Shown piece by piece: positions 4,806 through 25,681 of a DNA stretch of 26,858 nucleotides (the stretch's first letter is position 1; every line of letters starts with the position of its first letter). The stretch covers positions 1-26,858 of the IMG/VR virus record IMGVR_UViG_3300050025_000038; one strand, written 5' to 3'. The DNA is from a virus. The notes under the pieces are model-generated. The model did no database searches. It was not told where the DNA came from and saw only the letters and a list, made by a program, of their open reading frames with translations. Position numbers and translations under genes: made by a program.

Positions 4806-5453
4806 CGGGCACCCCCGCGGCGAAGGCCGCATCTTCCGCCTGGCGTTCCGCTTGCGCGAGGGCGTTGCTGAGGCGCACGGCGTTGCCCGATCGCATCTCT
4901 GCAATCAGTTGCAAGCTCAGGCGCGCCTCGTAGAACGTCATTGTCCTGACTTCCTCCCAGCCGTAGCGGTCCGCGAGGATCGTCTGGAGGGCTTCGGGGG
5001 CTTCGGCCCAGAGGACGGGCTCGGAGATATCGATAGCTCGTTGTGCCCAGCCTGCGAGAGCAGTTGTCGTCTGCGGACTAAAGGGCGCGTCAGATCCTCC
5101 GAGTAGAGGCTGTCCGCGAACTCGATCGCCACGTCCCCGCCGTCATTCCACGGCAGGAGACGCTCGACGTTCTCCGCGGTAATCGGGACGGGCAGAACCG
5201 CGCCCGTCCCGTCGGGTTCAAGGAACGACCACGCGACGACATGGCGCAGCCACACCCCCGCGAGGATGCCTTCGACGGCCGACACGGCCTGAGCGGCGCC
5301 GCGGTATGACTCGTTCTGGAGCGTCTGCTGCAAAGCGAATGTTGCCTCGGCGCCCATCTCGACAGTAAGTGACGCGGGGAACTCGACCCAATCCTGAGGG
5401 TGGGGCGTGCCCGGACACGAGCACGCCTTCACCTCTACGCGCTTGGTTTCCAT
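4792..5453 (-). CDS. Tail assembly chaperone, -1 frameshift fusion product
   Basis: Predicted 220-residue fusion made when ribosomes slip back one base at 5085-5079. Residues 1-125 come from the upstream chaperone frame (5453 to 5079) and the next 95 residues from the -1 frame (5079 to 4792). The -1 frame is open and protein-like across the whole overlap: after the slip it reads SPQTTTALAGWAQRAIDIS, later ILADRYGWEEVRTMTFYEAR, then a helical region rich in Ala/Glu/Arg ending VPDGYR. In contrast the zero-frame tail is low-complexity Ser/Pro/Lys/Arg, as expected for an overlapping leftover frame. Lambda G/GT and many siphoviruses use this arrangement just before the tape measure gene. An ATG at 4941 overlapping the zero-frame stop (ATGA) could alternatively give a separate 49-aa protein. 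Confidence 0.75.
4938..5453 (-). CDS. Tail assembly chaperone, zero-frame product
   Basis: This 171-residue protein occupies the slot of lambda gpG between the tail tube gene and the tape measure. It starts with ATG at 5453 preceded by a near-perfect ribosome site (AGGAGG, five bases away). The N-terminus has a CSCPGTPHPQDW segment, and residues ~92-125 (ENVERLLPW, EFADSLYSEDLTRPL) look like the conserved core. From residue ~126 on, the sequence turns into Arg/Ser/Pro/Lys-rich low complexity, which fits a frame that is mainly the overlap with the -1 product. Family function (known for lambda-like phages): binds the tape measure and promotes tail tube polymerisation, and is absent from the virion. 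Confidence 0.8.
   Translation of the reverse strand: METKRVEVKACSCPGTPHPQDWVEFPASLTVEMGAEATFALQQTLQNESYRGAAQAVSAVEGILAGVWLRHVVAWSFLEPDGTGAVLPVPITAENVERLLPWNDGGDVAIEFADSLYSEDLTRPLVRRRQLLSQAGHNELSISPSPSSGPKPPKPSRRSSRTATAGRKSGQ
5079..5085 (-). promoter_or_regulatory. -1 ribosomal frameshift slippery site CCCTTTA
   Basis: On the minus strand bases 5085-5079 read C CCT TTA in the zero frame, an exact X XXY YYZ heptamer. CCT is codon 124 and TTA codon 125 of the chaperone. After slippage the tRNAs re-pair on CCC and TTT and decoding continues with AGT at 5079. I see only a weak 4-bp stem (CTGC/GCAG) some 20 bases downstream, so the strength of any stimulator is unknown. Confidence 0.7.
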
Positions 5454-5462
5454 GCGTTCCTC

Positions 5463-6479
5463 CTAGAGCGAAGCCAGAGCGTTGACCACTACCCACTTCT
5501 GGGCGTATGCGAGGGTGGGGTTGTAAACGTTGTTGCACGTCAGCTCGGCGGCGGTGTTGGCCGCGCCGTGCGTGGTGTCCGCGTGAACCGTCCAGTAACC
5601 GGCGAAGCGCAGGTCGCTGGAGTAGTTCGTGGCGCCCGATGCCATGATCGGGGATTGCGTCTTGATACCGAGGAACCGCTGCTGCGGGTTTGAGTTTAGG
5701 AAGTTCGCGATCTCCGTGAGGATGGCCGCGGACTTGGCGCCGGTGATCTTGAACTCCACCGTTCGCAAGCCGCGCCCGTAGCCGGAAGCCACCAGGCGAG
5801 TGTTCGAGCCGTTCTGGAACCGCTTGACATCGATCGTGTTCTTGATTGTCAGGACCCAGGAATGAATGGCGTTTGTGAGCGCGGTGCCTTCGATGCCGGC
5901 GGCGGTCGCGTCGAGATAGACCGTGGTGTCGGTGGACATCCACGGTGTTGGGGAGGGATCGACTGAGAGTGATCCTGTGGGGGCCTGCGGGTAATCCATC
6001 GCGGCGAAGCGCCAGGAACCCGTGTGCGTGACCGGTCCCTGATCGTCGGGGGCCGTGAGAACGAGCTGCTCAAGCAACCCACCCCGGAAGCGGAGTTGGT
6101 CGGTGGTTTCGTCGCCCCATTCGGCGGTGAACGTCTGGAAGTTGTCCTGCGTCACCGAGGCGGGCTGGCATGTCCAGGTTGTCGCCCCGGAAGTCACCGG
6201 GGTAACGGGCTTGTACAGCGCCGTCATGAGTGCCGGCAGGTCGTTGTAGTTCAGCGGCCCGTCTGAGCTTCCGGTGTAATCGTAGGCCGTGGGATACGGC
6301 GCGATCGGCCGGTCGATGTTGCCGCCGTCCACATCGGGGAACGTCCAGTGCGGCTCAACGGTTGGAGTGAACTTCCACGGGTATCTGCGGGTGGCGACGG
6401 CAGTCGTTGCGAACGTGACCTCCGCGCCCAGTTGAAAGTTTCGCAGCCTTACTGCGCCCGGAATGGCGGTAATCGGCAC
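5463..6479 (-). CDS. Major tail tube protein
   Basis: A 338-residue protein, Thr/Ser/Gly-rich with alternating hydrophobic pattern as expected of the beta-barrel subunits that stack into the tail tube. It sits immediately upstream of the chaperone pair, the standard position of the major tail protein. An ATG in frame at 6545 would overlap the previous gene by more than 30 bases; I prefer the GTG at 6479 because GGAG lies eight bases upstream (AAAGGAGACAACCCG) and the protein then begins VPITAIPGAVRLRNFQLG. No immunoglobulin-like extra domain was recognised, though the length exceeds the ~200-250 residues of many tube proteins. Assignment rests on position and composition, not on a sequence motif. 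Confidence 0.75.
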   Translation of the reverse strand: MPITAIPGAVRLRNFQLGAEVTFATTAVATRRYPWKFTPTVEPHWTFPDVDGGNIDRPIAPYPTAYDYTGSSDGPLNYNDLPALMTALYKPVTPVTSGATTWTCQPASVTQDNFQTFTAEWGDETTDQLRFRGGLLEQLVLTAPDDQGPVTHTGSWRFAAMDYPQAPTGSLSVDPSPTPWMSTDTTVYLDATAAGIEGTALTNAIHSWVLTIKNTIDVKRFQNGSNTRLVASGYGRGLRTVEFKITGAKSAAILTEIANFLNSNPQQRFLGIKTQSPIMASGATNYSSDLRFAGYWTVHADTTHGAANTAAELTCNNVYNPTLAYAQKWVVVNALASL

Positions 6480-6511
6480 CGGGTTGTCTCCTTTCTTGGC
6501 GGGTTTACCGC

Positions 6512-7003
6512 CTACCTGTAGCCTTCCTGTACAACGAACGACCATGCGATCTCAGCGTGACCCATGACGATCTGATCCTGTCGCAGCTCCTTCGGCCCCT
6601 TGTCCTCCGATGTGATGGCAAGGATGCCGGGAGCGAGAACGTTGATGTTCAGCGTGAACAGGTCGCGCATGAGATCCATGAAGGCGTTGATGCGATCGTC
6701 GAGCTGATCGCGGTTCGTGAGCCAGTCGATGTACCCAAGCGTCCCCGTAAACGTCGTGGTGCGCACCTGATTGGAGAACTGCTCGCTCGCTTGAAAGTCT
6801 CCGATGTAGGTATACGGAGACTCGCCCGTCAGGGAGTCCGGCAACGTGTGGTAGTCGGCGTGGATGATGCCCTGCGTGTTAGCCGCCGCGCGGAAGGCGT
6901 CGAGCATCGCCATGAGTGCGGCGTGTACGTCCTGGCGCCATGTGCCATACGTCGCGGGCACCACTACCGCCGGAGTGCGCAGCGTCGTAAACGGGCTCGT
7001 CAT
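6512..7003 (-). CDS. Tail terminator/completion-like protein
   Basis: A 163-residue protein located between the gp10-like gene and the tail tube gene, where lambda gpU-type tail terminators usually lie. It begins MTSPFTTLRTP at the ATG at 7003, which overlaps the preceding stop by four bases; an earlier in-frame ATG (7021) is less likely for that reason. The sequence has an N-terminal helical region (HAALMAMLDAFRAA), a segment with IGDFQASEQFSNQVRTTTFTG, and a strand-rich C-terminus, compatible with the small alpha/beta fold of terminators. No specific motif proves it; a minor structural protein is the alternative. A 32-base gap holding the next gene's ribosome site follows. Confidence 0.55.
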   Translation of the reverse strand: MTSPFTTLRTPAVVVPATYGTWRQDVHAALMAMLDAFRAAANTQGIIHADYHTLPDSLTGESPYTYIGDFQASEQFSNQVRTTTFTGTLGYIDWLTNRDQLDDRINAFMDLMRDLFTLNINVLAPGILAITSEDKGPKELRQDQIVMGHAEIAWSFVVQEGYR

Positions 7004-7512
7004 CGGCCGGCCCCATTCCACACGGCGACTACCCTGTCCGCGAGTCCGGCCTTGGAGATCGCCTGCTGCGCGCCAGCAACCATGAAGTTATGCGGCTTGG
7101 TTCCGGGATGATGCACGAACATCGCGAACACGGCGCCGGCTTTCGCTCGTGCGGCGGCCGAACCGCGGAAGGCGGACTTCACCGAACCTGAGAGCCGTGT
7201 GCCCGCCCCGGACGGAGAGAAGAACAGGGCTTTCTTGTTCTTCGGCCGGATCTCATGCGGGCGCGTGCCCGTCTCGATGTAGGCCGCCGTGCTTCTGGCT
7301 ATCGTCTGCGCCGACGTTGCCGTAACGGGCCCGAGGATGACGTTCTGGCCGGAGTGCCCAGTCTTGCGGTGGACTTCCTGGTACAGCAGTATCTTCTGCT
7401 CTCGCACGGCGGCAGCAGCCAGCGAGCCCATGATCGCCTTACCCAATGTCGGGCCTTTGAGTGCAGCGAGGCGGGCCTGGAGTTGCGCGTAACCCTGGAT
7501 GGTTTCAGCCAA
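7000..7512 (-). CDS. HK97 gp10-like head-tail/tail completion protein
   Basis: A 170-residue basic protein with the arrangement typical of the HK97 gp10 family: helical N-terminus (ETIQGYAQLQARLAAL), central region with AYIETGTRPHEIRPK and ALFF, and a later HHPGTKPHNFM block. The ETGTRPHxI and HPGTKPHxFM patterns are the features by which I recognise the family. Members act at the neck, joining head and tail. The start is a TTG at 7512, overlapping the connector stop by eight bases; no in-frame ATG gives a comparable N-terminus. Confidence 0.75.
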   Translation of the reverse strand: MAETIQGYAQLQARLAALKGPTLGKAIMGSLAAAAVREQKILLYQEVHRKTGHSGQNVILGPVTATSAQTIARSTAAYIETGTRPHEIRPKNKKALFFSPSGAGTRLSGSVKSAFRGSAAARAKAGAVFAMFVHHPGTKPHNFMVAGAQQAISKAGLADRVVAVWNGAGR

Positions 7513-8218
7513 CTTGCACCGCCTGCTGGCCCACGGTGTGAGAGGCGATGAAGTCTCTTACCTCGCCAGGGAGGTCGCCGTACTTCATTGTCGAGCCGCC
7601 GGGCGTCATTGCCACGGGCGCAAGAACCGAACCCGGACGCTCCACCTTGTAGGCCGAGAGGATGGTGAGCGCGTCGATATAGTCGTAAGGCTCCGAACCC
7701 AACGCATACCCCGCGTTGCCCCAGATGCACAGGTCGTTCGGCATCGAAGTCAGCCCAATCATGCCGCCCCGGTTGCCGGGGAACCACGGGCTGTCATAGA
7801 GCTGGTCGTACCAATCGGCGTGCGCGTACCACCAGTTCGGCGTGTCGGCCGTGATGAACGCGCGGAACTGGAGCGCGGTGTAGACGCCCGTCGCGAGATT
7901 GTCGGGCAGCGCCCAGCAGCCGCCGGACGCCGTACCGGGCAGCGCCACCGTCAGCGCGGACCCGCCCCACGTCACCGCGTCGAAGGTGCGGAAGCCGGGG
8001 ATGGGGACCTCGGGCGCGATCATCGTCGTGGCGGCCCACGGGATGCCGCCCACGGGGAACGCGCGATCCGCGAAGAACCGCCGGCACTCTTTCTCCAGGA
8101 ACCCGATGGCGCCCAGAATGGCGGAGTACATCACGGCGTCGGAGTACCGCGAGTCCGTCGACGCTCCGAGGTTGAGATAGGCCCGCACGGTGGCGGGCGT
8201 GATCGCCTGAGTCGTCAT
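7505..8218 (-). CDS. Head-tail connector protein (gp6-like)
   Basis: A 237-residue protein whose N-terminus (ATVRAYLNLGASTDSRYSDAVMYSAILGAIGFLEKECRR in two parts) is the pattern of gp6/gp15-type connectors, which form a ring under the portal. Typical connectors are ~100-200 residues; the extra length comes from a Trp/Tyr/Gly-rich middle section (about 110-180). In most HK97-like phages this gene follows the major capsid gene directly; here it is separated from it by the eleven-gene sugar/acyl cassette. ATG at 8218 overlaps the stop of the GT4 gene (ATGA), so its translation is coupled to the cassette. Confidence 0.65.
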   Translation of the reverse strand: MTTQAITPATVRAYLNLGASTDSRYSDAVMYSAILGAIGFLEKECRRFFADRAFPVGGIPWAATTMIAPEVPIPGFRTFDAVTWGGSALTVALPGTASGGCWALPDNLATGVYTALQFRAFITADTPNWWYAHADWYDQLYDSPWFPGNRGGMIGLTSMPNDLCIWGNAGYALGSEPYDYIDALTILSAYKVERPGSVLAPVAMTPGGSTMKYGDLPGEVRDFIASHTVGQQAVQVG

Positions 8219-9435
8219 GCTGCCACCTCGACCCGTTGCTCCAGGAGCGCGGCGAACTGCTGAGCCGCCAGCTTCCAGCTGAACTCGCGAACGTGCATCG
8301 AACCCAGCATCCCGGCCTCGCGGGCGCGAGCCGGGTGAGTGATGTAGAACTCGACCGCCTCAGTGAAGCGGCCCTCATCTGGGCGCGCCCACAGACAGGA
8401 GTAGATGCTGTCCACTAGGCCGCCCACCGGAACGCAGGTGCCGCCATTGCCGACCACCTCGGGCACACTCGAATAACCGAGTCCCACCACTGGCGTTCCG
8501 CAGGCTAGGGCCTCCGCTATTGTAAGCCCGAAGCCCTCCGCTGAGGAAGAGACATAAACGTCGGCCGCGTTGTACATCGCGTTGAGCAGCTTGCGGTCGC
8601 AGGGGTAGAGTCCGGTCGGGCTCATGCGGTTCTGGATGTCGATGGCGTACTTGGACACTTCGTCGGCCAAGTCGCCGCCCTGATCCTGCACGCGGCAGTG
8701 GAAGCGGAACTGCGCCTCGGGGTGATGGCTCAGGACGGGCGCCAGCGAGCGCAGCAGCGAGGCGTACATCTTGCGCGGCATGTTGGCGTCGGCCCGGAAG
8801 ATGAGCGGCCCTTCGACGCCAAAGAACCGCTTACACTCGACCTTGCTCGTGAGCTTGATAAGCGTCTTACCGTCGGTTAGGACGATAGGCTTGAACGGGC
8901 TCACGGGCCAGAACGACTCCGTGTCGATACCGTGGTACACGACCGGCGGCCGAGAACCCGTCACGCGCTCGATCTCATCCGCGCCAAACTCGCACATCGC
9001 CACGGGTGAGACGTGCTCCCAGATCGTCGCCCACTTCGGCGGCGAGTCCATGCCCTCGATGGGGACGTAGTGCCAGATCGGGAAGCCTTCAGGGATCATT
9101 TCGAGCAGGTGGCTCATCTTGAGACTGCCCACGTCGCCCACGACGAGAGCTTTCTCCGGCGTCCAGCCGTCCTCGAACACTCCGCCGCTGAACATCTCGC
9201 GCACGCGCTGCGAAGTCCGAACGACCCCCTCCGGCGTACCCAATGAGAGCCAGCCGTTCTTTTGCCCGAGCATCGCCACGCGGCCCTCGAAAGCCGGGGG
9301 GATGAGCTGGTCGGTGCCCTCATTGAGTGAGACGAAGCGCACATCGAGCCCGAGCTTGAGCAGCTCCGTGCCCAGCCCGAACGTCACGGTGCCGAACCCG
9401 GTGGCGGCGGTGTCTCCAATGAACAAGACTTTCAC
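8215..9435 (-). CDS. GT4-family (GT-B fold) glycosyltransferase
   Basis: A 406-residue retaining-type glycosyltransferase of the GT4 group, which transfers a sugar from a nucleotide donor in the cytoplasm. Visible features are the N-terminal Rossmann start (VKVLFIGDTAATGFGTV, a glycine-rich acceptor-side loop), HGID at 169-172, and the C-terminal donor site with E300-GFG and E308 in the E-x7-E arrangement followed by ACGTPVVG. Length is normal for the family. I chose the GTG at 9435 because it overlaps the previous stop (GTGA) and has AGG seven to nine bases upstream; an ATG at 9507 would add 24 residues inside the preceding gene. It is the last gene of the cassette and is coupled to the connector gene. 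Confidence 0.88.
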   Translation of the reverse strand: MKVLFIGDTAATGFGTVTFGLGTELLKLGLDVRFVSLNEGTDQLIPPAFEGRVAMLGQKNGWLSLGTPEGVVRTSQRVREMFSGGVFEDGWTPEKALVVGDVGSLKMSHLLEMIPEGFPIWHYVPIEGMDSPPKWATIWEHVSPVAMCEFGADEIERVTGSRPPVVYHGIDTESFWPVSPFKPIVLTDGKTLIKLTSKVECKRFFGVEGPLIFRADANMPRKMYASLLRSLAPVLSHHPEAQFRFHCRVQDQGGDLADEVSKYAIDIQNRMSPTGLYPCDRKLLNAMYNAADVYVSSSAEGFGLTIAEALACGTPVVGLGYSSVPEVVGNGGTCVPVGGLVDSIYSCLWARPDEGRFTEAVEFYITHPARAREAGMLGSMHVREFSWKLAAQQFAALLEQRVEVAA

Positions 9436-10037
9436 GGTGTTACCTCTGCATGACGTGCGTCCCATAGCGCCTGATCGGCAGCCACGATAGGCCCCTTCTC
9501 GTCCCACACCTTACGCGCTGAGCCGTCCACCTGATGAATGATCGGCAACCCCCGGATACGGCACACGAGCCGCCCGGCAGCGCGGACGCGCTCCTCGAAG
9601 TCGTCGTCGCCGAACCACCATCCGTAAGACTCGTCGAATACCGGCAGGTTGACGGGTGCGCGGAACATGAAGCAGAACCCCGCCATGCCGCCGCGGCCCC
9701 ATGATCCTTCGGTGGCCTGTAGGGTGAGCGGCTCGATTGGCAGACTGCCAAAGCCCACGCTTACGTCCGGGTATACGACGCCCACTAACGGGTCGGTATC
9801 CAGAGCGCGCGCCATGAGCGGCAGCGTTCCGGGGAGGATGGTTATATCGTCATTCAGGATGGCGATATGGTCCACGTTCCCCGCAAGCCGCACGCCCTCA
9901 TTCCACATTCGGTAGATGCGATGTTCGTAGTCGGCGGACTCCAGTAGATGCACCTCTACGCCGTCGGCCTCCAGCAGCGCAATCAGCGGGTCGAGCTGTG
10001 GCGGGTGAAACCGAGTCGGGATGACGGCGGCGATCAT
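9432..10037 (-). CDS. GT-A fold (GT2-like) glycosyltransferase
   Basis: A 201-residue short GT-A enzyme beginning MIAAVIPTRFHPPQL. It has an N-DD motif at 62-64 (HIAILNDDITILPG) in the position of the metal/nucleotide-binding aspartates, a GGMAGFCFMFR segment near 117-126, and a DDD at 144-146 (GWWFGDDDFEERV) in the position of the catalytic region of GT2 enzymes. It lacks any membrane segment, so it should act as a soluble or peripheral transferase. The ATG at 10037 overlaps the preceding stop by four bases. Donor and acceptor cannot be read from the sequence. Confidence 0.75.
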   Translation of the reverse strand: MIAAVIPTRFHPPQLDPLIALLEADGVEVHLLESADYEHRIYRMWNEGVRLAGNVDHIAILNDDITILPGTLPLMARALDTDPLVGVVYPDVSVGFGSLPIEPLTLQATEGSWGRGGMAGFCFMFRAPVNLPVFDESYGWWFGDDDFEERVRAAGRLVCRIRGLPIIHQVDGSARKVWDEKGPIVAADQALWDARHAEVTP

Positions 10038-10639
10038 GCGTCCACTCTCGGAACGTGCAGGTTGGGGAAGTAGCGATAGACGACATCTGGCACGAACCCG
10101 AACGTCACGCCGTCCGCGAGCATCTGCGCCACGAGCGCCCAGTCGGATGGGTAGTTCGATACCTTCAGGCGTTGCGGGAGTCCGGCTCGGCACATGAAAG
10201 ACTGGATCTGTCCTTCTCGGGGCGGGTAGGCTCCGATGAACCCGCATCCCACAACCTCGGCCCGTCCATAGACTGCATCCACGCCGTCCGTAGCCGCCAG
10301 GAGCACGGATAGGGCGTCGGGGGGAAGTTCGTCGTCATCCGCCAGGCCGGTGGTCCATTCGCCGTGTGCATGATCCATCCCCCAATTGGATGCGTTCACG
10401 GCAGTCTGCCGCCAAGCCGCTTCGGGATCGTTCTCCGGGTACGCCTGGCGGGGTAGGTTGACAAACGAGATACGGTGATCCGCGATGCCGGCCTCGATGG
10501 CGGCGACAGTCTCAGGTGCGCATCCGTCCCCGACAATGAGCATCTCCCAATCCGTGTGCGTCTGGGCCAGGACGGACGGGACGCACCGGCTGAACAACAG
10601 GCCCGGCCGGTTGTACGTGGGGGTGATGATGGTGATCAC
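10034..10639 (-). CDS. GT2-family glycosyltransferase
   Basis: A 201-residue GT2 enzyme with the classical opening VITIITPTYNRPGLL, a GDG near 37-39 and the DDDE block at 101-104 (GEWTTGLADDDELPPDAL) that binds the metal and nucleotide sugar. It is shorter than most GT2 proteins and has no transmembrane segments. The GTG at 10639 overlaps the KAS III stop (GTGA); the frame is open 64 codons further upstream, but that part is Arg-rich shadow of the KAS III gene. Family assignment is strong, specificity unknown. Confidence 0.85.
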   Translation of the reverse strand: MITIITPTYNRPGLLFSRCVPSVLAQTHTDWEMLIVGDGCAPETVAAIEAGIADHRISFVNLPRQAYPENDPEAAWRQTAVNASNWGMDHAHGEWTTGLADDDELPPDALSVLLAATDGVDAVYGRAEVVGCGFIGAYPPREGQIQSFMCRAGLPQRLKVSNYPSDWALVAQMLADGVTFGFVPDVVYRYFPNLHVPRVDA

Positions 10640-11574
10640 GGCATGATCCAACAGGACGCGCCGAACCCGAAGCCCGCGCCCACGGCGGCGAAGCACACCT
10701 TCGAACCCGACTTGATAGCGCCGGCCTCTACGGCGTCCGCGAGCGCAATCGGCACCGAAGCCGCGCCGGCATTGCCCACCGTTTCGACGTTGGTATACGT
10801 CTTGGTCATTTGCACATGAAGTATGCCGCACAAGAACTCAATGAGCCGCAGGTTGGCCTGGTGGAAGATGAAGCAATCCACGTCCGCCACGTCCCAATGC
10901 GCCTTATCGAGCGCACGTAAAACCGTACGCGGCAGGTGCGCGAGTGCTTGCTTGCCTGTGGCGAAGCCGTACTGCTCGATATGCGGGAACGCCGTCCCGC
11001 GCTTGCAGCGCACCGCCTCATATTCCGAAGAGTCGGCGTAGTAAGCGTTCGCCACGAACCCAACATCCGCGGGGCCCAAGACAACCGCGCCCGCGCCGTC
11101 AGAGAAGAACGGGGCCGTGTTCTCATCCGTCTTGTCAATGAAGTCCGCCACGACTTCCGAACCCACCACTAGCGCGTAGTGAACCGTGGGGTCTACCGTC
11201 ATCCGATCCGTCGCCACTCCGAGCGCCGCGACGAACCCAGAGCAGTTGGCTTGGAGGTCGAAGAACTGCCCGCCCTTCAGTCCTAGGTCGTGGTGGAGCT
11301 TCGCGCTCGCGGCCGGGAACAGATAGTCATGGCTGAACGTTGCGACGATAGTGAGCCCTATCTGCTCCGGGGAGACTTGCGCCGCGTCTAGGGCCTTCCT
11401 GGCGGCTTGTAGGGCCAAGGACGCGACAGTCTCGCCATCCACCGCCATGTAGCGTTGCTTGATACCAGTCTTTTCGACGATCCACTCCGGTGTAACGGGT
11501 AGCGTCTGGCAGAGTTCCTCGTTCGAGAGAAGCTTCGATCCCATCGCGCGGCCGGTTCCGAGTATGCCGATCAT
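10636..11574 (-). CDS. 3-oxoacyl-ACP synthase III (FabH-like, KAS III)
   Basis: A 312-residue thiolase-fold condensing enzyme, the same length as bacterial FabH. All three catalytic residues are present: Cys111 in ANCSGF, His238 in IFHQAN and Asn268 in VGNAGAASVP, with the C-terminal GFGFGASCW loop. KAS III enzymes condense an acyl-CoA starter with malonyl-ACP; relatives in secondary metabolism instead transfer acyl groups. In this operon it accompanies an acyl carrier protein and an SDR reductase, so a product such as a short 3-hydroxyacyl-ACP is a reasonable inference. Start ATG at 11574 overlaps the preceding stop (ATGA). A KAS III in a phage structural operon is unusual. Identification is near certain; the substrate is unknown. 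Confidence 0.95.
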   Translation of the reverse strand: MIGILGTGRAMGSKLLSNEELCQTLPVTPEWIVEKTGIKQRYMAVDGETVASLALQAARKALDAAQVSPEQIGLTIVATFSHDYLFPAASAKLHHDLGLKGGQFFDLQANCSGFVAALGVATDRMTVDPTVHYALVVGSEVVADFIDKTDENTAPFFSDGAGAVVLGPADVGFVANAYYADSSEYEAVRCKRGTAFPHIEQYGFATGKQALAHLPRTVLRALDKAHWDVADVDCFIFHQANLRLIEFLCGILHVQMTKTYTNVETVGNAGAASVPIALADAVEAGAIKSGSKVCFAAVGAGFGFGASCWIMP

Positions 11575-11777
11575 GTCGCCTCCAATACGAGCCAGTGCCT
11601 GTTCGGGTCTGCTACGGCGGGGTCTTTGGCGGGATCGTAGATAGGCTCGTCATCATTCGCGGCACGGTGTACCCACAACCCCCCGTTAGGCGGGACAGGC
11701 TCCTTGCTAGGTCCACACCAGCAAAACGGGTTAGGGGAATGGTTCTGCCAATCCGGGAGGACGTGCACTGTATTCAC
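11571..11777 (-). CDS. Small 68-aa protein of unknown function
   Basis: Starts with GTG at 11777 overlapping the SDR stop (GTGA), with GGAGGT five bases upstream, and ends overlapping the KAS III start (ATGA). The longer open frame up to 11978 is an antisense-like shadow of the SDR gene. The protein is acidic with many Pro, Asp and Trp residues, a FCWCG element near residues 18-22 and the segment GGLWVHRAANDDEPIYDPA. No signal peptide or membrane segment is visible. I do not recognise the family. Its tight coupling on both sides argues it is translated and belongs to the cassette. Confidence 0.65.
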   Translation of the reverse strand: MNTVHVLPDWQNHSPNPFCWCGPSKEPVPPNGGLWVHRAANDDEPIYDPAKDPAVADPNRHWLVLEAT

Positions 11778-12412
11778 CTTGCACCTCCGAGGTAGATCGT
11801 CTGTCCCGTGATGAATGGGCTGGAGCAGAAGAAGTCCACCACGGCGAACACGTCTTCGAACGTCGCCATGCCCAACGGCAGCCGCGACAGGATGGCTTTC
11901 TGAGTCGCTTCGGAATGCGCGGCCCACATCGCGGTAGGCAGCGCCGAGACGCCCACCGTGTTTACCGTGACGCCCCACGGTGCGAACTCCTTGGCGAGTA
12001 CGCCCGTCATGGCCTCACAACCGGCTTTCGTTGCGGTGTAGAGCGCGGTTCCGGCGTCCTCGAATGGCACGGCAATCGAGCCGATATTGATAATGCGTCC
12101 ACCCGTAGAGCGCATACGCTTGGCCGCTTCGACGGAGCAGTTGAACGTCCCGAGCAAGTTTGTGAGTACCGTCTCACGCGCGATACCGTCAGGCGTGGCA
12201 GCGGCATAGGACGCGGAGCCGACGGCGGCGTTGTTCACAAGGATGTCAACGTGCGGAGGCAGAGCCGCGCGCACCGCTGCGGGATCGCTCACGTCGCAAC
12301 CGTTCGTCCGGCTGAGATCAAACACGTTGGCGCCCTCGAAGTGACCCGCAAGTTCCAAGCCAAGCCCACGACTGGCCCCGGTGATGACAACGCCCAGTCC
12401 CTCGTATTTCAT
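11774..12412 (-). CDS. Short-chain dehydrogenase/reductase (FabG-like)
   Basis: A 212-residue classical SDR. It has the dinucleotide-binding TGASRGLG at 11-18, NNAA at 60-63, Ser112 in the IGS motif, and the active-site Tyr125-x3-Lys129 (YTATK). It is somewhat shorter than the ~245 residues usual for FabG. SDRs of this group reduce 3-oxoacyl-ACP or sugar keto groups with NAD(P)H. Its neighbours, an acyl carrier protein upstream and a KAS III downstream, favour a 3-oxoacyl-ACP reductase role; reduction of a keto-sugar is the main alternative because an FdtA-like isomerase is also encoded nearby. Start ATG 12412 overlaps the ACP stop. Confidence 0.9.
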   Translation of the reverse strand: MKYEGLGVVITGASRGLGLELAGHFEGANVFDLSRTNGCDVSDPAAVRAALPPHVDILVNNAAVGSASYAAATPDGIARETVLTNLLGTFNCSVEAAKRMRSTGGRIINIGSIAVPFEDAGTALYTATKAGCEAMTGVLAKEFAPWGVTVNTVGVSALPTAMWAAHSEATQKAILSRLPLGMATFEDVFAVVDFFCSSPFITGQTIYLGGAR

Positions 12413-12669
12413 GCGTTCTCCAGGTAGGCGGCGAACGTCGCCACGGTGGCGTAACGCTCTGCGGGATCGAACGTGCCGTCCGGGTTCAGGTTCAGCGTGA
12501 CGCCCTTGGCGCGCAGGCCGTCCTCCACCTCCAGGATGGCGGAGATAAACCCTAGCGAGTCCAGATCGGAGTCTGGGCCGTAGACAACGGTGGACGGCGT
12601 AACGTCCACGCTGCCGTCGCCCTGAAGCTGGAACGCCCGCTTGACTGCGGCGATGACAAGTGCTTCCAC
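12409..12669 (-). CDS. Acyl carrier protein
   Basis: An 86-residue acidic helical protein with the phosphopantetheine attachment motif DSLGF; the serine is residue 38 counting from the chosen start. The surrounding DLDSLGFISAILEVEDGL is the typical start of ACP helix II, and the length is normal. A host phosphopantetheinyl transferase would be needed, since none is seen here. I chose the GTG at 12669 because GGAG stands about seven bases upstream; a TTG at 12681 would add four residues. ACP presumably carries the acyl group made by the KAS III and SDR and delivers it to the GNAT-type transferase (inference). Confidence 0.9.
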   Translation of the reverse strand: MEALVIAAVKRAFQLQGDGSVDVTPSTVVYGPDSDLDSLGFISAILEVEDGLRAKGVTLNLNPDGTFDPAERYATVATFAAYLENA

Positions 12670-12670
12670 G

Positions 12671-13234
12671 TTAGTCTCCAATCAGCCCGCTGAGTCGCGG
12701 GCGCATGATGTTGCGATAGTCGTCTTGCGTGCAGCCCATCCACACCGCGTCCATGTAGTGTCCGTTCAGGAAGTAGAAGTCCTTGAGCCGTCCTTCTTCC
12801 TTGACGCCGATATACCTAGCCCATGCGAGCATGCCAGAGTTTTCGGAGGCGATGGGACCATGCTGGCTGTGGAGCTTCAGCACGTCGAAGGCGTAGTCGT
12901 ATAGCAAGCGCGACGCTTCGGCGGCAATCACGCCGTTTCCGTAGGGCTTCACGAGTTCGGGCTCGCCGATCAGGAAGTGGCCCATCTCGAACGTCTTGTG
13001 AGTGTGCGAGATTTCCACGAGAGACAGCATCCCCACGGGTTCGCCCGTCACGAGCTGCTGAATGAAGTTGTACTCAGTGTCAGGCCGCGAGGCGATCCAT
13101 GCGCGCTGCTCTTCGACGTTCCGCGCGCCGCGGTTCAGCAGGAACGCCCGCGGGGACTCGCGCCACTTATGCGTAATCTCGGCGTCGTCTGGTACGAGCG
13201 GCCGAAGACTGACATACCGTCCGGTGAGTATCAA
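12671..13234 (-). CDS. GNAT-family N-acyltransferase
   Basis: A 187-residue GNAT protein of the RimJ/RimL or sugar N-acetyltransferase type. It opens with LTGRYVSLRPLVPDDAE, has HKWRE near residue 22, and the acyl-CoA-binding region is seen as the EMGHFLIGEPELVKPYGNG stretch followed by an amphipathic helix and the typical ASENSGMLAWARYIG C-terminal element. The best start is a TTG at 13234 overlapping the previous stop (TTGA), with GGAGG seven bases upstream. In sugar pathways such enzymes acylate the amino group of a nucleotide-activated amino sugar (PseH is an example). Here the donor could be acyl-CoA or the cassette's own acyl-ACP. Protein N-terminal acetylation is a less likely alternative. 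Confidence 0.8.
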   Translation of the reverse strand: MILTGRYVSLRPLVPDDAEITHKWRESPRAFLLNRGARNVEEQRAWIASRPDTEYNFIQQLVTGEPVGMLSLVEISHTHKTFEMGHFLIGEPELVKPYGNGVIAAEASRLLYDYAFDVLKLHSQHGPIASENSGMLAWARYIGVKEEGRLKDFYFLNGHYMDAVWMGCTQDDYRNIMRPRLSGLIGD

Positions 13235-13929
13235 AGCGGGTCCTCCACGGTTGCGCCGGCCACAGCGGACGCCCACCACGCGGCGAAGTCATCGTCGTTC
13301 AGGGAGCCGAGATAGCGCCAGTGCGTCGCCACGCCTTGCGGTTGGTTGGACAGGGTTGCGAGCGCATGGCGCATCTTCGCCTTCGCGCCTTCGAGTGAGC
13401 GGTACGGCAGGTGGCGAATAACCACCGGAGCCGGCGCGAAGTCATAGGCCCCTGCCTCATGGCGGCTGTAGTCAACCTGTACGTCGGCGCGGAACGCTAC
13501 CTTATACGGTGAGAGCAGGGCCGGCCAACGGTTCGAGTGGACGCGGAACGGATCTCCGAGCGGATCGGTAGGCTGCGGGATGAACGTATACACGCCCGCC
13601 GTGAAACCCGCCGCGTCGGGCAGCATGTCGCGGATACGCCCGCCGGGCACGTACCACCACTCGTCCGAGTCGCAGGGGATCAACCAATCGGCGCCCTTTT
13701 CCCGTGCCAGATCAGCCATCTCAGCGTACATGCGCGGGACGCAGTACGTGAACTCGGGCTCGATCCTGACGGTGAGTCTGGGACTGTCGTCGGCGATCAG
13801 GATCTCCCGCGTGCGGTCGGTCGAATTATTGTCGGTGACTATCACAATATCGCATTCGGCGAGCATGTGACGCACGACGGAGGCGACTATATCCTCATCA
13901 TTCCAAGTGGCCATGAGCCCGGCGATCAT
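13231..13929 (-). CDS. GT-A fold (GT2-like) glycosyltransferase
   Basis: A 232-residue transferase starting MIAGLMATWNDEDIV, a GT2-type opening, with VTDNNSTDRT at 31-40 in the nucleotide-binding loop and D87-S-D89-E90-W-W as the metal-binding site (IPCDSDEWWY). The C-terminal part contains FRVHSNRWPALLSPYK and a conserved-looking HLPYRSLEGAKAKM helix, like the GT2 subgroup that has an acceptor-binding helix after the catalytic core. No membrane segments. ATG 13929 overlaps the stop of the isomerase gene. Specificity unknown. Confidence 0.8.
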   Translation of the reverse strand: MIAGLMATWNDEDIVASVVRHMLAECDIVIVTDNNSTDRTREILIADDSPRLTVRIEPEFTYCVPRMYAEMADLAREKGADWLIPCDSDEWWYVPGGRIRDMLPDAAGFTAGVYTFIPQPTDPLGDPFRVHSNRWPALLSPYKVAFRADVQVDYSRHEAGAYDFAPAPVVIRHLPYRSLEGAKAKMRHALATLSNQPQGVATHWRYLGSLNDDDFAAWWASAVAGATVEDPL

Positions 13930-14375
13930 CGGACGCCCTGGAGTTCTTCCAGTGAGTGCGTCTTTGCGCGGCGTTCGAAGTACGGCTCCTCCAGTACCTC
14001 CAACCCGGCCTTGAACAGCTCGAAGTCGCGGATGTAGTCGGCCTCGTCATATTGCGTGGACGCCAGAACTAGAGCAACGGAGTTCGAGCTGAAGTTGGAC
14101 AGGCTGCGCCATACGTTCGCCGGAACGTGCAGTCCAACCGTGGGACGGTTGAGCTGCCAGCGGTGCGGGCCATGTTCATCGTACGTGCTCACGTCGAACG
14201 AACCAGAGATAGCGATGATTACCTCTTGCATCGTGCGCTGTGCGTGCCCGCCGCGCGAAGCCCCAGCGGGAACGTCTGTGATGTAGAACACTCTCCGAAC
14301 AGGGAACGGGATGGCGTCGCCCTCGATGGCCGTGAGCCTGCCCGATGGATCGTCGATCGTGCGCAGTTGGATCAT
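13926..14375 (-). CDS. FdtA/QdtA-like sugar 3,4-ketoisomerase (cupin)
   Basis: A 149-residue cupin of the WxcM-C/FdtA family. Members convert dTDP-4-keto-6-deoxyglucose to a 3-keto isomer, the step before amination to 3-amino-3,6-dideoxy sugars. Recognition rests on RRVFYITDVPAGASRGGHA, the ISGSFDV turn, LHVPANVWRSL and the family signature YDEADYIRDF. In the family the first motif normally reads RGxHAH with two histidines; here H44 is kept but the second is Gln46, which may alter catalysis. No aminotransferase or dTDP-glucose dehydratase is encoded in the window, so the host or another phage region would have to supply substrate and amination. Start ATG 14375 overlaps the preceding stop. Confidence 0.82.
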   Translation of the reverse strand: MIQLRTIDDPSGRLTAIEGDAIPFPVRRVFYITDVPAGASRGGHAQRTMQEVIIAISGSFDVSTYDEHGPHRWQLNRPTVGLHVPANVWRSLSNFSSNSVALVLASTQYDEADYIRDFELFKAGLEVLEEPYFERRAKTHSLEELQGVR

Positions 14376-14989
14376 GGTGCCAGCCTCCCGTACAGCGCGT
14401 CATCGGCGGCGATGCGATCTTCGGGCTTGGAGTGGATGAGATACGCCGAGCGCGGTGCCTTCGGGAGCAGAGGTGTGTTGCGTGTCTGGCTCTCGGGCCG
14501 TCCATCGAGCAGTACGAGTTCGTGAACCGGGCGATACCAGGCGCCCAAACCCGAGCGGAACAGGCGGCAGTGCCATTGGTCCTCGCCGAACTCCCCACGG
14601 ACTCCGGCGAAGTAGTTGACGCGCCAGAACAAATAACCGCGCGGCGCGTAGTAAACGGCGCCGTACCACGGCACGTCGCCCCACTCGGAGGCGTCCACTT
14701 GTGCCAGGAAGGCCATCATCGAAGGGGTCGGTAGTTCGTCAGGGTCGAGCATGAGCGTCCAGTCGCCCTTGACGTGCGTCAAGGCCGCATTGCGCGCGGC
14801 TGAAAAGTCGTCGCACCATGTGAACGGCACGAGTTCCGCGCCCCATGACGCCATGAAGTCGCAGTCGCGCTGCGAGGTGCGGTCATCCACAACGATGACA
14901 ACCTGGCCCACGACGGGCTTGACGTACTCCAACAGGGCCGCCAGCCGATCTATCTGCGGGTCCCGGACCAGCATCGCGAGGGTTATCAC
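14372..14989 (-). CDS. GT2 glycosyltransferase, WaaE-like
   Basis: A 205-residue GT2 enzyme and first gene of the cassette. Visible elements are VVIVVDDRTS at 31-39, DFSAARNAAL at 61-70, the metal-binding D82-P-D84-E85, and a C-terminal DQWHCRLFRSG followed by WYRPVHELV. This order matches WaaE/KdtX-type GT2 enzymes that add a hexose or heptose to lipopolysaccharide cores. I chose GTG 14989 with GGAG seven bases upstream; the longer frame reaches back into the capsid gene through the terminator hairpin and is Pro/Arg-rich. The 73-base gap to the capsid gene is the only real gap inside this part of the operon. Confidence 0.85.
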   Translation of the reverse strand: MITLAMLVRDPQIDRLAALLEYVKPVVGQVVIVVDDRTSQRDCDFMASWGAELVPFTWCDDFSAARNAALTHVKGDWTLMLDPDELPTPSMMAFLAQVDASEWGDVPWYGAVYYAPRGYLFWRVNYFAGVRGEFGEDQWHCRLFRSGLGAWYRPVHELVLLDGRPESQTRNTPLLPKAPRSAYLIHSKPEDRIAADDALYGRLAP

Positions 14990-15021: not shown

Positions 15022-15054
15022 GTGGGGGGCCGGGGAACGCGACCGGCCCCCCAC
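15022..15054 (-). terminator. Strong GC hairpin after the capsid gene
   Basis: A perfect 12-bp inverted repeat (arms 15022-15033 and 15043-15054, 9-base loop) begins eight bases after the capsid stop. The arms are almost all G:C (GTGGGGGGCCGG). No run of T follows on the minus strand, so it is not a textbook intrinsic terminator; it may act as a partial terminator, a 3'-end stabiliser of the capsid message, or both. It would let capsid transcripts outnumber those of the cassette and tail genes. Confidence 0.65.
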
Positions 15055-15062
15055 GATACGGG

Positions 15063-16577
15063 TTATGCGATGACTGAAGAGCACCACTGGAAAGCGCCCG
15101 TGGCAATGGCGGGATAGGCGTTGAAGCCAATCTCCTCTTCGCCGCGGAAGCCGATCAGGTTCTGATCCCAACGCAAATAGGCAACGTCAGAGGTGTCAAT
15201 CCTGAACTCCATCCCACGGTACAGCTTTGCCTGCTTGAACTCGCCGGCGATGGCGCCCTTCGTGGTTCCGGTGTTCGTATTGAAGTTGGCGTCGTATTTC
15301 ACGTCGCGTCCCCAGAAGGTGAGTCCACCGCCTGAGGTCTGCTGAAGGCCGTAAACCCGGCCCTGGGGGGAGACATCGCTGGGGCCCATCGCCGGAGCGA
15401 GGAAGAAGCCAGCGGCGTCGGTACCTTGCGCCATGATCGTGAAGAAGGTCGTCGCGTCGGTGACGGCTGTCACCTCCGTGCGGCCCTTCGCGGCCAGGGT
15501 GCCCATCATCTTCGCCAGAGCGCCAGAGAACGAGCCCGCGAGGGTCGTGGCCGACGGTGTGAAGGTGGTGGTGTAGGTGCCGTCTGCGATGAGGCCGGTG
15601 TAGATGCCAACGGTCGGATCGCCCACACCCTGAGAACCTGTGCCGGCGCCAGCGATGACGTAATAGTCCTCGCCCAACGTGGCGGCGCGCGTCAGTTCGT
15701 CGAGTACGTCCTGTTCGGCCGAGCCGGCCGAGAAGCGCGCATACTGCTTGGAGATGTCGTAGACGCGGGCCATCGTGCCCAAGATCGCGGTGTACGAGAA
15801 GTACGCCTCGTTCACGTTTTCCTTGGTAGCGCCCCAGTTCTGGAACTGCATCCGGGCCGGAGCGCCGGTGCGGTACGGCATGTCCACTCCACGAACTGCC
15901 ACGCCGTTTATGACGGTGAGCAGTTGCGGGTAAACGGCCGCCTGGGTGCGCGGCTTGATAACCGTGTCAACCAGGTTGTTCGGCAGAACGTATCCACCGG
16001 TGGCGCCAGTGGCGCCGAGGGTCGCCTTCGTGCCGGGCGGCAGGTGGGCAAGATTGCCCTTGCTCGCGGCGGGAGTCTCGGCCCATTCGCCGAAGTCAGC
16101 CATCGCCTTACGTCCGGCGTTGATTGCCTCGACATCGAAGTAGCCCGAAGGCAGCTCGATCGCCTTGGCGTTCAGGAGCGCCGTAAACAGTTCGCCAGCC
16201 TGGTAGTTGCGGAAGGCGGCCTTGAGATACGGGTGGGGCTGGTTGAACGCGTTGGCCTTGCGGCGTCCGCCTTCGTCCTTGCCTTTGGGCCCGTCGCCCA
16301 GAAGCGCGGCCTTGCTCGCCGGGCGGAGGTTGGCGAGAGCCGCCTTGACGGCTTCGTCGATCTCTGCCTGACGCTCGGCCTTCGCGGCTTTCTTGTCGCG
16401 CTTGATTTGCGACTCGTCCTTTTCGACGAGTTCCTTGGCGATGGCTTTCTGGCCGTCAGTGGCACGATCCTGCGCACCATCAGCCTCGTATGCCTCGTTG
16501 GCCTTGCGCATCTCGGCGAGTAGCTCGTCCGCCTTTCGCGCCAGGTCCGAGTCGAGGTGCTCCGTGTTCTTTCCCAC
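15063..16577 (-). CDS. HK97-fold major capsid protein with scaffold domain
   Basis: A 504-residue protein. Residues 1 to ~105 are charged and helical (Lys/Glu/Ala-rich coiled coil), resembling the N-terminal delta scaffold domain that is cut off during maturation. From ~115 the HK97-type shell domain follows: a GATGGYVLPNNLVDTVI segment near 190, then VRGVDMPYRTG, the AYFSYTAILG spine region, and a C-terminal FRGEEEIGFNAYPAIATGAF. Start is a GTG at 16577 with AGGAG five bases upstream. It lies after the protease gene and ends at the hairpin. Assignment is very strong from both sequence style and order. Confidence 0.93.
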   Translation of the reverse strand: MGKNTEHLDSDLARKADELLAEMRKANEAYEADGAQDRATDGQKAIAKELVEKDESQIKRDKKAAKAERQAEIDEAVKAALANLRPASKAALLGDGPKGKDEGGRRKANAFNQPHPYLKAAFRNYQAGELFTALLNAKAIELPSGYFDVEAINAGRKAMADFGEWAETPAASKGNLAHLPPGTKATLGATGATGGYVLPNNLVDTVIKPRTQAAVYPQLLTVINGVAVRGVDMPYRTGAPARMQFQNWGATKENVNEAYFSYTAILGTMARVYDISKQYARFSAGSAEQDVLDELTRAATLGEDYYVIAGAGTGSQGVGDPTVGIYTGLIADGTYTTTFTPSATTLAGSFSGALAKMMGTLAAKGRTEVTAVTDATTFFTIMAQGTDAAGFFLAPAMGPSDVSPQGRVYGLQQTSGGGLTFWGRDVKYDANFNTNTGTTKGAIAGEFKQAKLYRGMEFRIDTSDVAYLRWDQNLIGFRGEEEIGFNAYPAIATGAFQWCSSVIA

Positions 16578-16591
16578 GTCGTCTCCTATTA

Positions 16592-17323
16592 CTAGAGGCC
16601 GCGTAGCCGCTTATAACGAGCGACTTCCGCTGCCAGTGCATCGATGGAGACGCGCCTTCCTTCGTCATCGGTTCGCCCTGCCGGGGTCACCTCCGAGTCG
16701 TCCGGGTTGCCTTCGAAACCGACCATGTACGCCTTTAGGGCGTCAGGGTCGATGTCCGCGAGATTGGTTTCCGGGTCCGCGAGCCACGCCTTGAGCGACG
16801 GGACCACCGCGTACCGGTTCTGTGGAGATGTAGTAATCGTGTGTCGGATGATGGGCCATACGTCAATATGGCCCTTCGTGCGTTTCGTGGCTCCGGCGAT
16901 TGCTTGAGACGAGCCGTACAGCGGAACGTGGCGGTGTTCCATGACCTCGAATATCCTGCGCCGCGCCTCGCCGACGTTGGCCCAGAAGTCAGCCCATAGG
17001 CCGAGCTTCTCGGGTGTGTCGTCCAGCATGACGCGCCCAAGCACGAGGCCCTTGCTTGACGGCACGCTCTTGGGTACGTCGTCAACGTCGTGGTGCCAGT
17101 CAACCAGACGGGCTTTGGTAGCGCGCAGCGTGGGGTATGGGCCGTACAGGTCCGTATCCGCGTCAAAGTATTCATTATCGAGATCCCGGCCGTGGCCGTC
17201 CTTCGATGGAATGGGACCGCCGAACGGGATCACGAGGACGCGCCGGGGGATCTTGCCCATAAGCCACTGCTCCAGGCGCGAGCCCTCCATCGGTTCCGCT
17301 TTCAGTTCGCCGTGGTCAAACAT
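16592..17323 (-). CDS. Prohead maturation protease (candidate)
   Basis: A 243-residue protein between portal and capsid genes, the usual place of the HK97-type prohead protease that trims the scaffold domain. The sequence has VLVIPFGGPIPS near 29-40, DWHHD at 75-79 and LYGSSQA at 135-141; a His followed ~60 residues later by a Ser in a YGSS context is compatible with the Ser-His catalytic pair of phage maturation proteases (S78-like). The C-terminus is charged. Start ATG 17323 has AGGTGAG upstream and lies seven bases after the portal stop. The presence of a cleavable scaffold in the capsid protein supports the call. Confidence 0.7.
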   Translation of the reverse strand: MFDHGELKAEPMEGSRLEQWLMGKIPRRVLVIPFGGPIPSKDGHGRDLDNEYFDADTDLYGPYPTLRATKARLVDWHHDVDDVPKSVPSSKGLVLGRVMLDDTPEKLGLWADFWANVGEARRRIFEVMEHRHVPLYGSSQAIAGATKRTKGHIDVWPIIRHTITTSPQNRYAVVPSLKAWLADPETNLADIDPDALKAYMVGFEGNPDDSEVTPAGRTDDEGRRVSIDALAAEVARYKRLRGL

Positions 17324-17330
17324 GTCTCAC

Positions 17331-24359: not shown

Positions 24360-25418
24360 TCAGTCGAGCTCCAGGCAATACTCGGCCGTGACGCGGCCCT
24401 TGAGTGGATCGACGAACCGCAGCCATTGGGACGGCCGGCCGACGGCGGCGAGCTGCTGCTGCGCGTAGGTGTTGTTCGACTCGGTTGAGCCGTTGCAGCG
24501 GAACGTGACGCGGTTCAAGGTCAACCGAGTCGGCTGGTGCCAGTGTCCGCAGTCGATGTCGACGTCGCCGCCGATCTGGAACGCTTGCGCCCATTCCTCG
24601 ATCGCACCCATCGCCCAGCCGCCGGCGTGCTTCTGGATGCTATACCAGGGCATCCCGGCGGTGCCGCGGAACTCCTGGCCGTGGACCATGAGCGTCCTAT
24701 ATTTGCCGATCTCCGCGACGTGGTACCAGTTGGACTCGCCTTCGGGATCGGTCATCTTGTGAGTGATGCGCGGCTCGTTCTCCGTCAGCATCGCGCTAAA
24801 CGCGTAGAGGATGCGATCGGCGTTGGACTCCGGGTGCATCTCGCGCCGGTTCGATCCGCCAATGGCGCCGTGGTTGCCGTCCACCTCCCACGCCGTGACG
24901 TGATCCACCCGCGCCGCGAGCGTACGCAGCAGCTCGGTGTAAAGCCGGGTTCCGTTCGTCAGTTGGCGGTAGAGCGAGGCGTCGATCCGGTGCGCCTGGC
25001 CGGGAAAGATCAGTTCGCCTTCGAGGGTGTCCCCGAGTGCCAGAACATGTAGCTGGCGGACGGGCGACCATTTGCGGTGGATGTCGATGATGTGGCCTAC
25101 CTTCCTTCCGAGGTACGCGATACGCTGCTCGCAGACAGCACTGCTGTAAGTGGGGGTTTTCTTGCCGTATTGCCAGTCGCTCACGTCCAGCACCGCGATC
25201 TCTTCGGGGACGCGGCGTCTGTCCGGTTCGGGTTTGGGGACAGGTGGGATGACGAGCGCGTTGGCGGTGTCGCGCACGGCGCGGTAGACGGCGGCCACCA
25301 TCTGATCGGTGCGCTTCTTTTCCTTGTCGAGCGCCACGAGTGTGTTGTTCAGGGAGCGTCGGATTTCTTCGAGTTCGGGATTCGGGTCATTGGCCTCCAT
25401 CTCCTTCAGCGAGGGCAT
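24360..25418 (-). CDS. Calcineurin-like metallophosphoesterase
   Basis: A 352-residue protein. After a helical N-terminus (~10-55) come the metal-site motifs of the superfamily in order: LDVSDWQYG (D78, D81), LGDTLEG (G129-D130), DGNHG (N182, H183), MVHGQEF (H246) and the closing GHWH at 291-294. The first motif lacks the usual D-x-H histidine (D-x-S-D), a variant I associate with phage homologues. It could act on nucleic acid or nucleotide phosphodiesters; the target is not evident. I chose ATG 25418; the frame upstream of it is an overlap with the previous gene. Overlap with that gene is 13 bases. Confidence 0.85.
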   Translation of the reverse strand: MPSLKEMEANDPNPELEEIRRSLNNTLVALDKEKKRTDQMVAAVYRAVRDTANALVIPPVPKPEPDRRRVPEEIAVLDVSDWQYGKKTPTYSSAVCEQRIAYLGRKVGHIIDIHRKWSPVRQLHVLALGDTLEGELIFPGQAHRIDASLYRQLTNGTRLYTELLRTLAARVDHVTAWEVDGNHGAIGGSNRREMHPESNADRILYAFSAMLTENEPRITHKMTDPEGESNWYHVAEIGKYRTLMVHGQEFRGTAGMPWYSIQKHAGGWAMGAIEEWAQAFQIGGDVDIDCGHWHQPTRLTLNRVTFRCNGSTESNNTYAQQQLAAVGRPSQWLRFVDPLKGRVTAEYCLELD

Positions 25419-25681
25419 TTGCAGTCTCTTCGTCGGTGGTAGGTGATGACATCGCCATTCAGGGGCGGCATCTCCATACCTGTCGCGGCGACGTATTCGC
25501 TCATACGGCGAGCGATACGCGGGCCGCTCCATGCGTCGGAGTCGGCAAGGTAGCCGTCGAAGGTGGCTAAGTCGGCCGGTGGTAGTCGTCTGCGGTAGAT
25601 CTCCACGGCGCAGTGCCGGCCGCCGCGCTGGAATGGCGTGTCGGGCATGTCTGCCAAGACGGCTTCTCGGAGTCGTCCCAC
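25406..25681 (-). CDS. 91-aa protein, possibly DNA-binding
   Basis: Starts with GTG 25681 behind a strong ribosome site (GGAGG, five bases). The first part (GRLREAVLADMPDTPF) is helical; the middle (LATFDGYLADSDAW) leads to SGPRIARRMSEYVAATG, which could be the recognition part of a helix-turn-helix, and the protein ends in HRRRDCKCPR, a basic tail with C-x-C. Small proteins of this shape occur in the early regions of actinophages. I do not claim a family. It is preceded by the repeat-rich intergenic region, so it may be the first gene of a transcript with the phosphoesterase. Confidence 0.6.
   Translation of the reverse strand: MGRLREAVLADMPDTPFQRGGRHCAVEIYRRRLPPADLATFDGYLADSDAWSGPRIARRMSEYVAATGMEMPPLNGDVITYHRRRDCKCPR

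Follow-up and report, generated by a model that had tools for sequence, protein, structure and literature searches.

Glycosylation of the virus particle has reportedly been described in the mycobacteriophages Che8 and Corndog, in work attributed to Freeman (2023). The locus that we analyzed here is an eleven-gene cassette on the minus strand of IMGVR_UViG_3300050025_000038, a linear and probably fragmentary IMG/VR virus record from a soil phage (hereafter “the window”, meaning the entire 26,858-nt stretch, positions 1–26,858). The cassette runs from 14989 to 8215, between the gene for an HK97-type capsid protein and a head-tail connector-like gene, and combines genes called as glycosyltransferases (GT1 to GT5 in reading order, labels distinct from the family names GT2 and GT4) with genes for a beta-ketoacyl-acyl carrier protein synthase III (KAS III), a short-chain dehydrogenase (SDR), a putative acyl carrier protein (ACP), a GNAT acyltransferase and an FdtA-type sugar ketoisomerase. 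In Cluster J phages (Omega, Thibault and others) the interval from capsid to head-tail connector holds eight to ten genes, with glycosyltransferases and methyltransferases among them, and the question of a viral or a host target was raised by the authors (PMC3706429). Cluster O phages hold transferase genes between portal and protease, with modification of capsid and tail tube reported (PMC11600133, PMC4351075, PMC12619734) and an O-methyltransferase also taking part in virion modification. Among bacteria, the wfpC-G genes of Flavobacterium psychrophilum (an ACP, ketosynthases, a ketoreductase and an N-acyltransferase) are predicted to make a 3,5-dihydroxyhexanoyl group and attach it to an amino sugar (PMC6519341).

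The window resembles Cluster J in the shared capsid-connector slot, in having several glycosyltransferases and in a content that varies among relatives, whereas the Cluster J genes described in the available portion of the report include methyltransferases and a kinase, with no mention there of KAS III, ACP, SDR or FdtA (PMC3706429). When the window proteins were compared with the phage collection, the capsid and GT1 gave no tblastn match and GT5 matched six distant records, none of them a mycobacteriophage; the window and Cluster J thus share an arrangement of one kind, known by its layout and without detectable sequence kinship. A shorter version is found in the Pontimonas phage phiPsal1 (MG835450), where capsid, GT4-family transferase, methyltransferase, GT2 and neck protein genes follow in order; GT5 matches the transferase there distantly (24%), but the slot holds three genes only and no acyl or sugar-nucleotide genes. 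The Che8 and Corndog precedent agrees with our reading in that phage-coded glycosyltransferases modify the capsid and tail tube (PMC11600133, PMC11256854, PMC12619734), while the mycobacteriophage virion glycosylation genes in those sources lie between portal and protease or close to the end of the genome and come without an acyl pathway. The first-pass annotation knew of no described phage system with this gene set; this holds for the acyl set and not for the slot, since slot glycosyltransferases are described in Cluster J and phiPsal1, and the KAS III, SDR, carrier-like, GNAT and FdtA set appears to be the new part of an already known arrangement.

We consider it probable that a broad group of environmental phages has a hypervariable locus for virion glycans and that the cassette represents one version of its content, here with a hydroxyacyl amino-sugar branch. 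All eleven open reading frames were confirmed on the minus strand where they had been placed, as was their coupling by overlaps of 4–16 nt to each other and to the connector: 4 nt at eight internal junctions and between GT5 and the connector, 11 nt between the GNAT and ACP genes and 16 nt between KAS III and GT3. The first gene, GT1 (14372..14989, minus strand as for every gene considered in the window, GTG start), is a GT2-family glycosyltransferase (PF00535, 4.9e-7), as are gene GT2 (13231..13929; PF13704, 4.2e-9) and GT3 (10034..10651, TTG start; PF00535, 1.8e-15), and the last gene, GT5 (8215..9435; PF13692, 1.5e-12), belongs to the GT4 family (GT-B). Four of the five glycosyltransferases originally proposed are therefore family-supported; GT4 (9432..10037) matches only PF00535 at E = 0.021, below the cut-off, and is a probable GT2-like enzyme. 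Between the SDR and KAS III genes lies a 68-amino-acid phage protein (11571..11777) from a family of uncharacterised function (phrog_2864, 3.8e-5).

The slot is not peculiar to this phage. Among relatives gathered by their terminase, without regard to cassette content, sugar genes follow the capsid wherever the capsid was recognised and enough sequence lay beyond it (L003, L015, L021-L023, L025, L026, L032/L134 and L036; L018 and L040 are uninformative because their capsid gene was not recognised). Since this was so in every such relative, the slot is apparently old, with contents that vary, and the original wording of a cassette “inserted” in the structural operon is right as to place, but less so as to history, the slot being filled in all relatives examined. 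GT1 homologues follow the capsid gene in L003, L015/L093, L021-L023/L094, L025/L095 and others, and GT4 homologues occupy the equivalent slot of L007, L094 and others, alongside epimerase, asparagine-synthase-like, GDSL and hexapeptide transferase genes in L093 (by reading also L095), a nucleotidyltransferase in L007 and an FkbM methyltransferase in L096 (by reading also L097). Scanning with GT5 returned 69 loci, from which 44 non-redundant contigs carrying both capsid and GT5 were retained, a sample in which GT5 is present by construction and its neighbours are not. The capsid lay upstream of GT5 in all 44, a connector-side gene followed GT5 in 37, the capsid-GT5 interval spanned 1.0–6.6 kb, and a GT1 homologue was called in 14, while KAS III, FdtA and ACP were found in none of the 44. 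Pfam searches of the 146 intervening genes returned 27 FkbM methyltransferases and 24 PF00535 glycosyltransferases, less frequently epimerase/dehydratase, nucleotidylyltransferase and UDP-sugar dehydrogenase types, and no match for many. GT5, which aligns at 47–51% identity (alignment A4) and closes the sugar genes throughout this sample, is the part of the locus that stays conserved at its end.

A scan with KAS III turned up one other contig with the cassette, L002, in which ten of the eleven genes occupy the equivalent slot and gene GT2 is absent. The two contigs share 97.5–99.5% DNA identity over GT1, FdtA, GNAT, ACP, SDR, the 68-amino-acid gene, KAS III and GT3, and 95% over GT4, with GT5 diverged to 47% protein identity; the similarity runs from the GT1 start codon (14989) to 9444, just short of GT5. 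Sequence present only in L002 amounts to ~260 bases in the gap between SDR and the 68-amino-acid gene and ~1.4 kb between GT4 and GT5. The backbones are far apart (capsid 31%, portal 41% and terminase 54% identity), so that the acyl set occurs in divergent phage backgrounds, in two phages so far. Over the near-identical genes we counted 69 synonymous changes at ~1,198 sites and 25 nonsynonymous changes at ~3,674 sites, a ratio of per-site rates (pN/pS) of 0.12; the ratio was low in every gene with enough changes, no gene was broken, and neither FdtA (6 synonymous changes) nor the putative ACP (3 synonymous) had any nonsynonymous change. Purifying selection therefore acts on these near-identical cassette genes.

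A single metagenome yielded both L002 and L003, and possibly the window too, so that assembly may have had some effect on the exact mosaic; the capsid-connector slot itself occurs in many other metagenomes. A chimeric assembly joining bacterial and phage DNA at 15000 or 8218, about which the first-pass annotation had been concerned, was ruled out, as L002 and 44 further contigs keep the order capsid, sugar genes, GT5, connector. Short repeats of the CCTTGCCCTG type lie at the sugar-gene edge in L002 (13272-13445) and in L099 (16530-16560), and may mark recombination or assembly. Outside the cassette, the major tail protein and chaperone (window 4711-6512) are 97–98% identical between the window and L002, against 31% for the capsid, an observation limited to this one pair. 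The tail-tube gene concerned is a candidate major tail protein assigned by position (5463..6545, ~97% identical to L002), and since this pair of phages shares the cassette and the tail-tube gene and not the capsid, the tail tube is hinted at as the acceptor.

For the acyl branch, the strongest component is KAS III (10636..11574), a FabH-like enzyme with matches to PF08545 and PF08541 (5.8e-26 for the latter), NCBIfam PRK09352 (1.5e-83, above the cut-off) and FabH structures in PDB (4e-53), and with an intact Cys-His-Asn catalytic triad (C111-H238-N268). The FabG-like SDR (11774..12412; PF00106, 2.5e-27) has S112, Y125 and K129 in place, and its best NCBIfam match is a 3-oxoacyl-ACP reductase (1e-29, below the cut-off of that model). 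The GNAT N-acyltransferase (12671..13234, TTG start; PF13302, 5.4e-11) is SpeG/PseH-like, its nearest PDB entries being spermidine acetyltransferases and its PseH model match weak (2.7e-8, below the cut-off), and the FdtA/QdtA-type cupin 3,4-ketoisomerase homologue (13926..14375) matches PF05523 (5.2e-41) as well as FdtA and QdtA in PDB. These four of the remaining original gene calls are family-supported; the putative ACP (12409..12681, TTG start) is called from a DSL motif (residues 41-43) and from its position. In function, the closest parallel to this set is the R-group pathway of the F. psychrophilum O-polysaccharide, which likewise brings together a carrier, a ketosynthase, a reductase and an N-acyltransferase but is bacterial, uses a PglD-type acyltransferase and not a GNAT, and has two ketosynthases and an aminotransferase.

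A fuller version of the proposal, which we put forward only tentatively, is that of a swappable “serotype locus” whose last glycosyltransferase stays constant and whose middle varies, and through which, in this case, a fatty-acid-synthesis-like route puts a hydroxyacylated amino sugar on the phage’s own particle. Late translation, alongside the structural proteins, would be expected for the cassette genes. An acyl-CoA and malonyl-ACP would be condensed by KAS III, and the resulting 3-oxoacyl group would be reduced to 3-hydroxyacyl by the SDR while bound to the small carrier. With this acyl group the GNAT would N-acylate a nucleotide-activated 6-deoxy amino sugar; FdtA would prepare the keto precursor of that sugar, and its amination would fall to an enzyme of the host or to one of the phage that was not seen. 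A short glycan would then be assembled by the glycosyltransferases in the cytoplasm, on the capsid and/or tail-tube protein. A 3-hydroxyacyl product is what the enzyme classes predict, and the virion is suggested as the target by the position of the genes, the lack of membrane proteins and the precedents above. Hydropathy analysis found no transmembrane segment in any cassette protein and therefore no flippase, polymerase or Gtr-type membrane transferase, unlike Gtr-type serotype conversion, which has both a membrane flippase and a membrane transferase.

Several points weigh against this proposal, beginning with the virion glycan, which is itself a prediction. The ACP is not proven and is the weak link of the cassette: it had no match in Pfam, NCBIfam, PHROG or PDB, and none to PF00550 even at E 10; its borderline profile score was equalled by 2 of 150 shuffles and nearly so by an unrelated piece of the window; and its predicted structure has a mean pLDDT of 51, too low for a meaningful fold search. 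The FdtA homologue carries HAQ in place of H-x-H, the first histidine (His49) being kept and His51 of FdtA changed to Gln. The role of catalytic base has been proposed for the first histidine of this motif, and the second has been regarded as strictly conserved, so that with the second one changed the activity or specificity may differ. The motif is intact in eight bacterial homologues (L109-L116) and in a phage homologue in contig L234, while the remote homologue of Streptomyces phage Zuko carries HAT. No sugar aminotransferase was recognised in the 26.9-kb fragment, either within the eleven-gene cassette or among the remaining genes that were examined, although the host could supply one. Across 41 phages, moreover, cassette similarity tracked capsid and tail-tube similarity only weakly, in pairs that are not independent. 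The analogy with acylated amino sugars drawn in the first-pass annotation is reasonable, having a well-matched bacterial precedent in wfpC-G (PMC6519341), but it is weakened by the unproven ACP, the aminotransferase not found and the altered FdtA motif. To the flagellin glycosylation islands of Pseudomonas, which that annotation named, the resemblance is putative.

Some of these gaps would be closed if the cassette instead serves to alter a glycan on the surface of the infected host, for example against superinfection, by way of a host lipid carrier and flippase: host-supplied amination and membrane steps would account for the missing genes, and comparable sugar-nucleotide and acyl genes are known in O-antigen and flagellin loci. 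We consider this unlikely, as the cassette holds no membrane protein and lies within the structural operon, with coupling to the connector, and the structural-region transferases of mycobacteriophages are described as modifying virions. Less probable still is that the acyl genes are a recent passenger without a working pathway and that the flanking glycosyltransferases alone matter; the absence of KAS III, FdtA and ACP from the other relatives searched speaks for it, as do the weak ACP, the changed FdtA motif and the aminotransferase not seen, but pN/pS is low, no gene is broken, the block is kept in two divergent phages, and the KAS III and SDR catalytic residues are intact. That the cassette acts on phage DNA, a small molecule or a lipid is very improbable: virus glycosyltransferases can hypermodify DNA (work cited in PMC12619734) and KAS III enzymes also serve secondary metabolism, but no gene for a hydroxymethylase or for base modification was recognised next to the cassette, which sits with capsid genes in all relatives and whose family-matched content is of the glycan type.

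Searches for the origin of the acyl genes found no source for KAS III or FdtA, the best identities being 41% and 47% in Chloroflexota and 38% and 49% in plasmids, respectively. KAS III matched 22 phage records, all below 38% identity and mostly unannotated fragments or Helicobacter records, and five other IMG/VR contigs (27–36% identity) whose fetched flanks held no structural homologue of the window’s phage group. Terminase relatives in contigs of metagenome-assembled genomes were limited to two from Chloroflexota, one from Elusimicrobia and one from Bacillota; the two Chloroflexota contigs (L100 and L103, at 55% and 30%) give a weak hint as to the host, and L100, the best of these relatives, had no other homologues of the structural genes. 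An unrelated phage, L234 (IMGVR 3300044823_000261), resembles the window in having a GT4-family transferase, a GNAT and FdtA near a structural gene, a P22-like portal, but differs in its intact histidine motif and its DegT aminotransferase, and in that the stretch fetched gave no match to KAS III or ACP. These L234 genes, together with a GroEL-like gene, lie at 4818-12146 and 17232-19160, and amino-sugar genes therefore stand near structural genes in at least two unrelated phages.

In order of decreasing coordinates, the window encodes the small and large terminase subunits, a portal with a Mu F-like end, a 243-amino-acid protein at the protease position and the capsid, followed by the cassette, the connector, two further head-tail genes, the major tail protein, the tail chaperone and the tape measure. 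Capsid (15063..16577; PF05065 1.2e-10, phrog_10 5e-19), portal and terminase were confirmed by family searches, and several of the other structural genes are named from position only. The connector-like gene (7505..8218) had no family match in profile searches and is assigned by its position and by synteny conserved with homologues in relatives. A single 883-amino-acid protein (17331-19982) combines the portal and Mu F-like domains, with several hundred residues between them lacking a Pfam match, and a further gene (24360-25532) matches phrog_284, annotated as exonuclease. The gap between capsid and GT1 contains a 12-bp perfect G+C-rich stem-loop without a T-run (15022..15054, minus strand), in a region of which an 82-nt stretch folds at -33.8 kcal/mol (z = -1.8); this hairpin could restrict readthrough from the capsid into the enzyme genes. 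In two relatives the same gap holds a minus-strand gene pair opposing the operon (L007 7801-8918; L032 17928-18673 and L134 12-611), one gene of which has no Pfam match.

Only a small number of phages are known to have glycans on the virion. That dozens of environmental phages share a locus with a constant end and exchangeable contents suggests a diversification of the particle surface in the manner of bacterial O-antigens. The acyl branch, which gives a clear prediction for mass spectrometry, would, if true, tie fatty-acid-synthesis-like chemistry to a phage structural operon, of which we found no other example.

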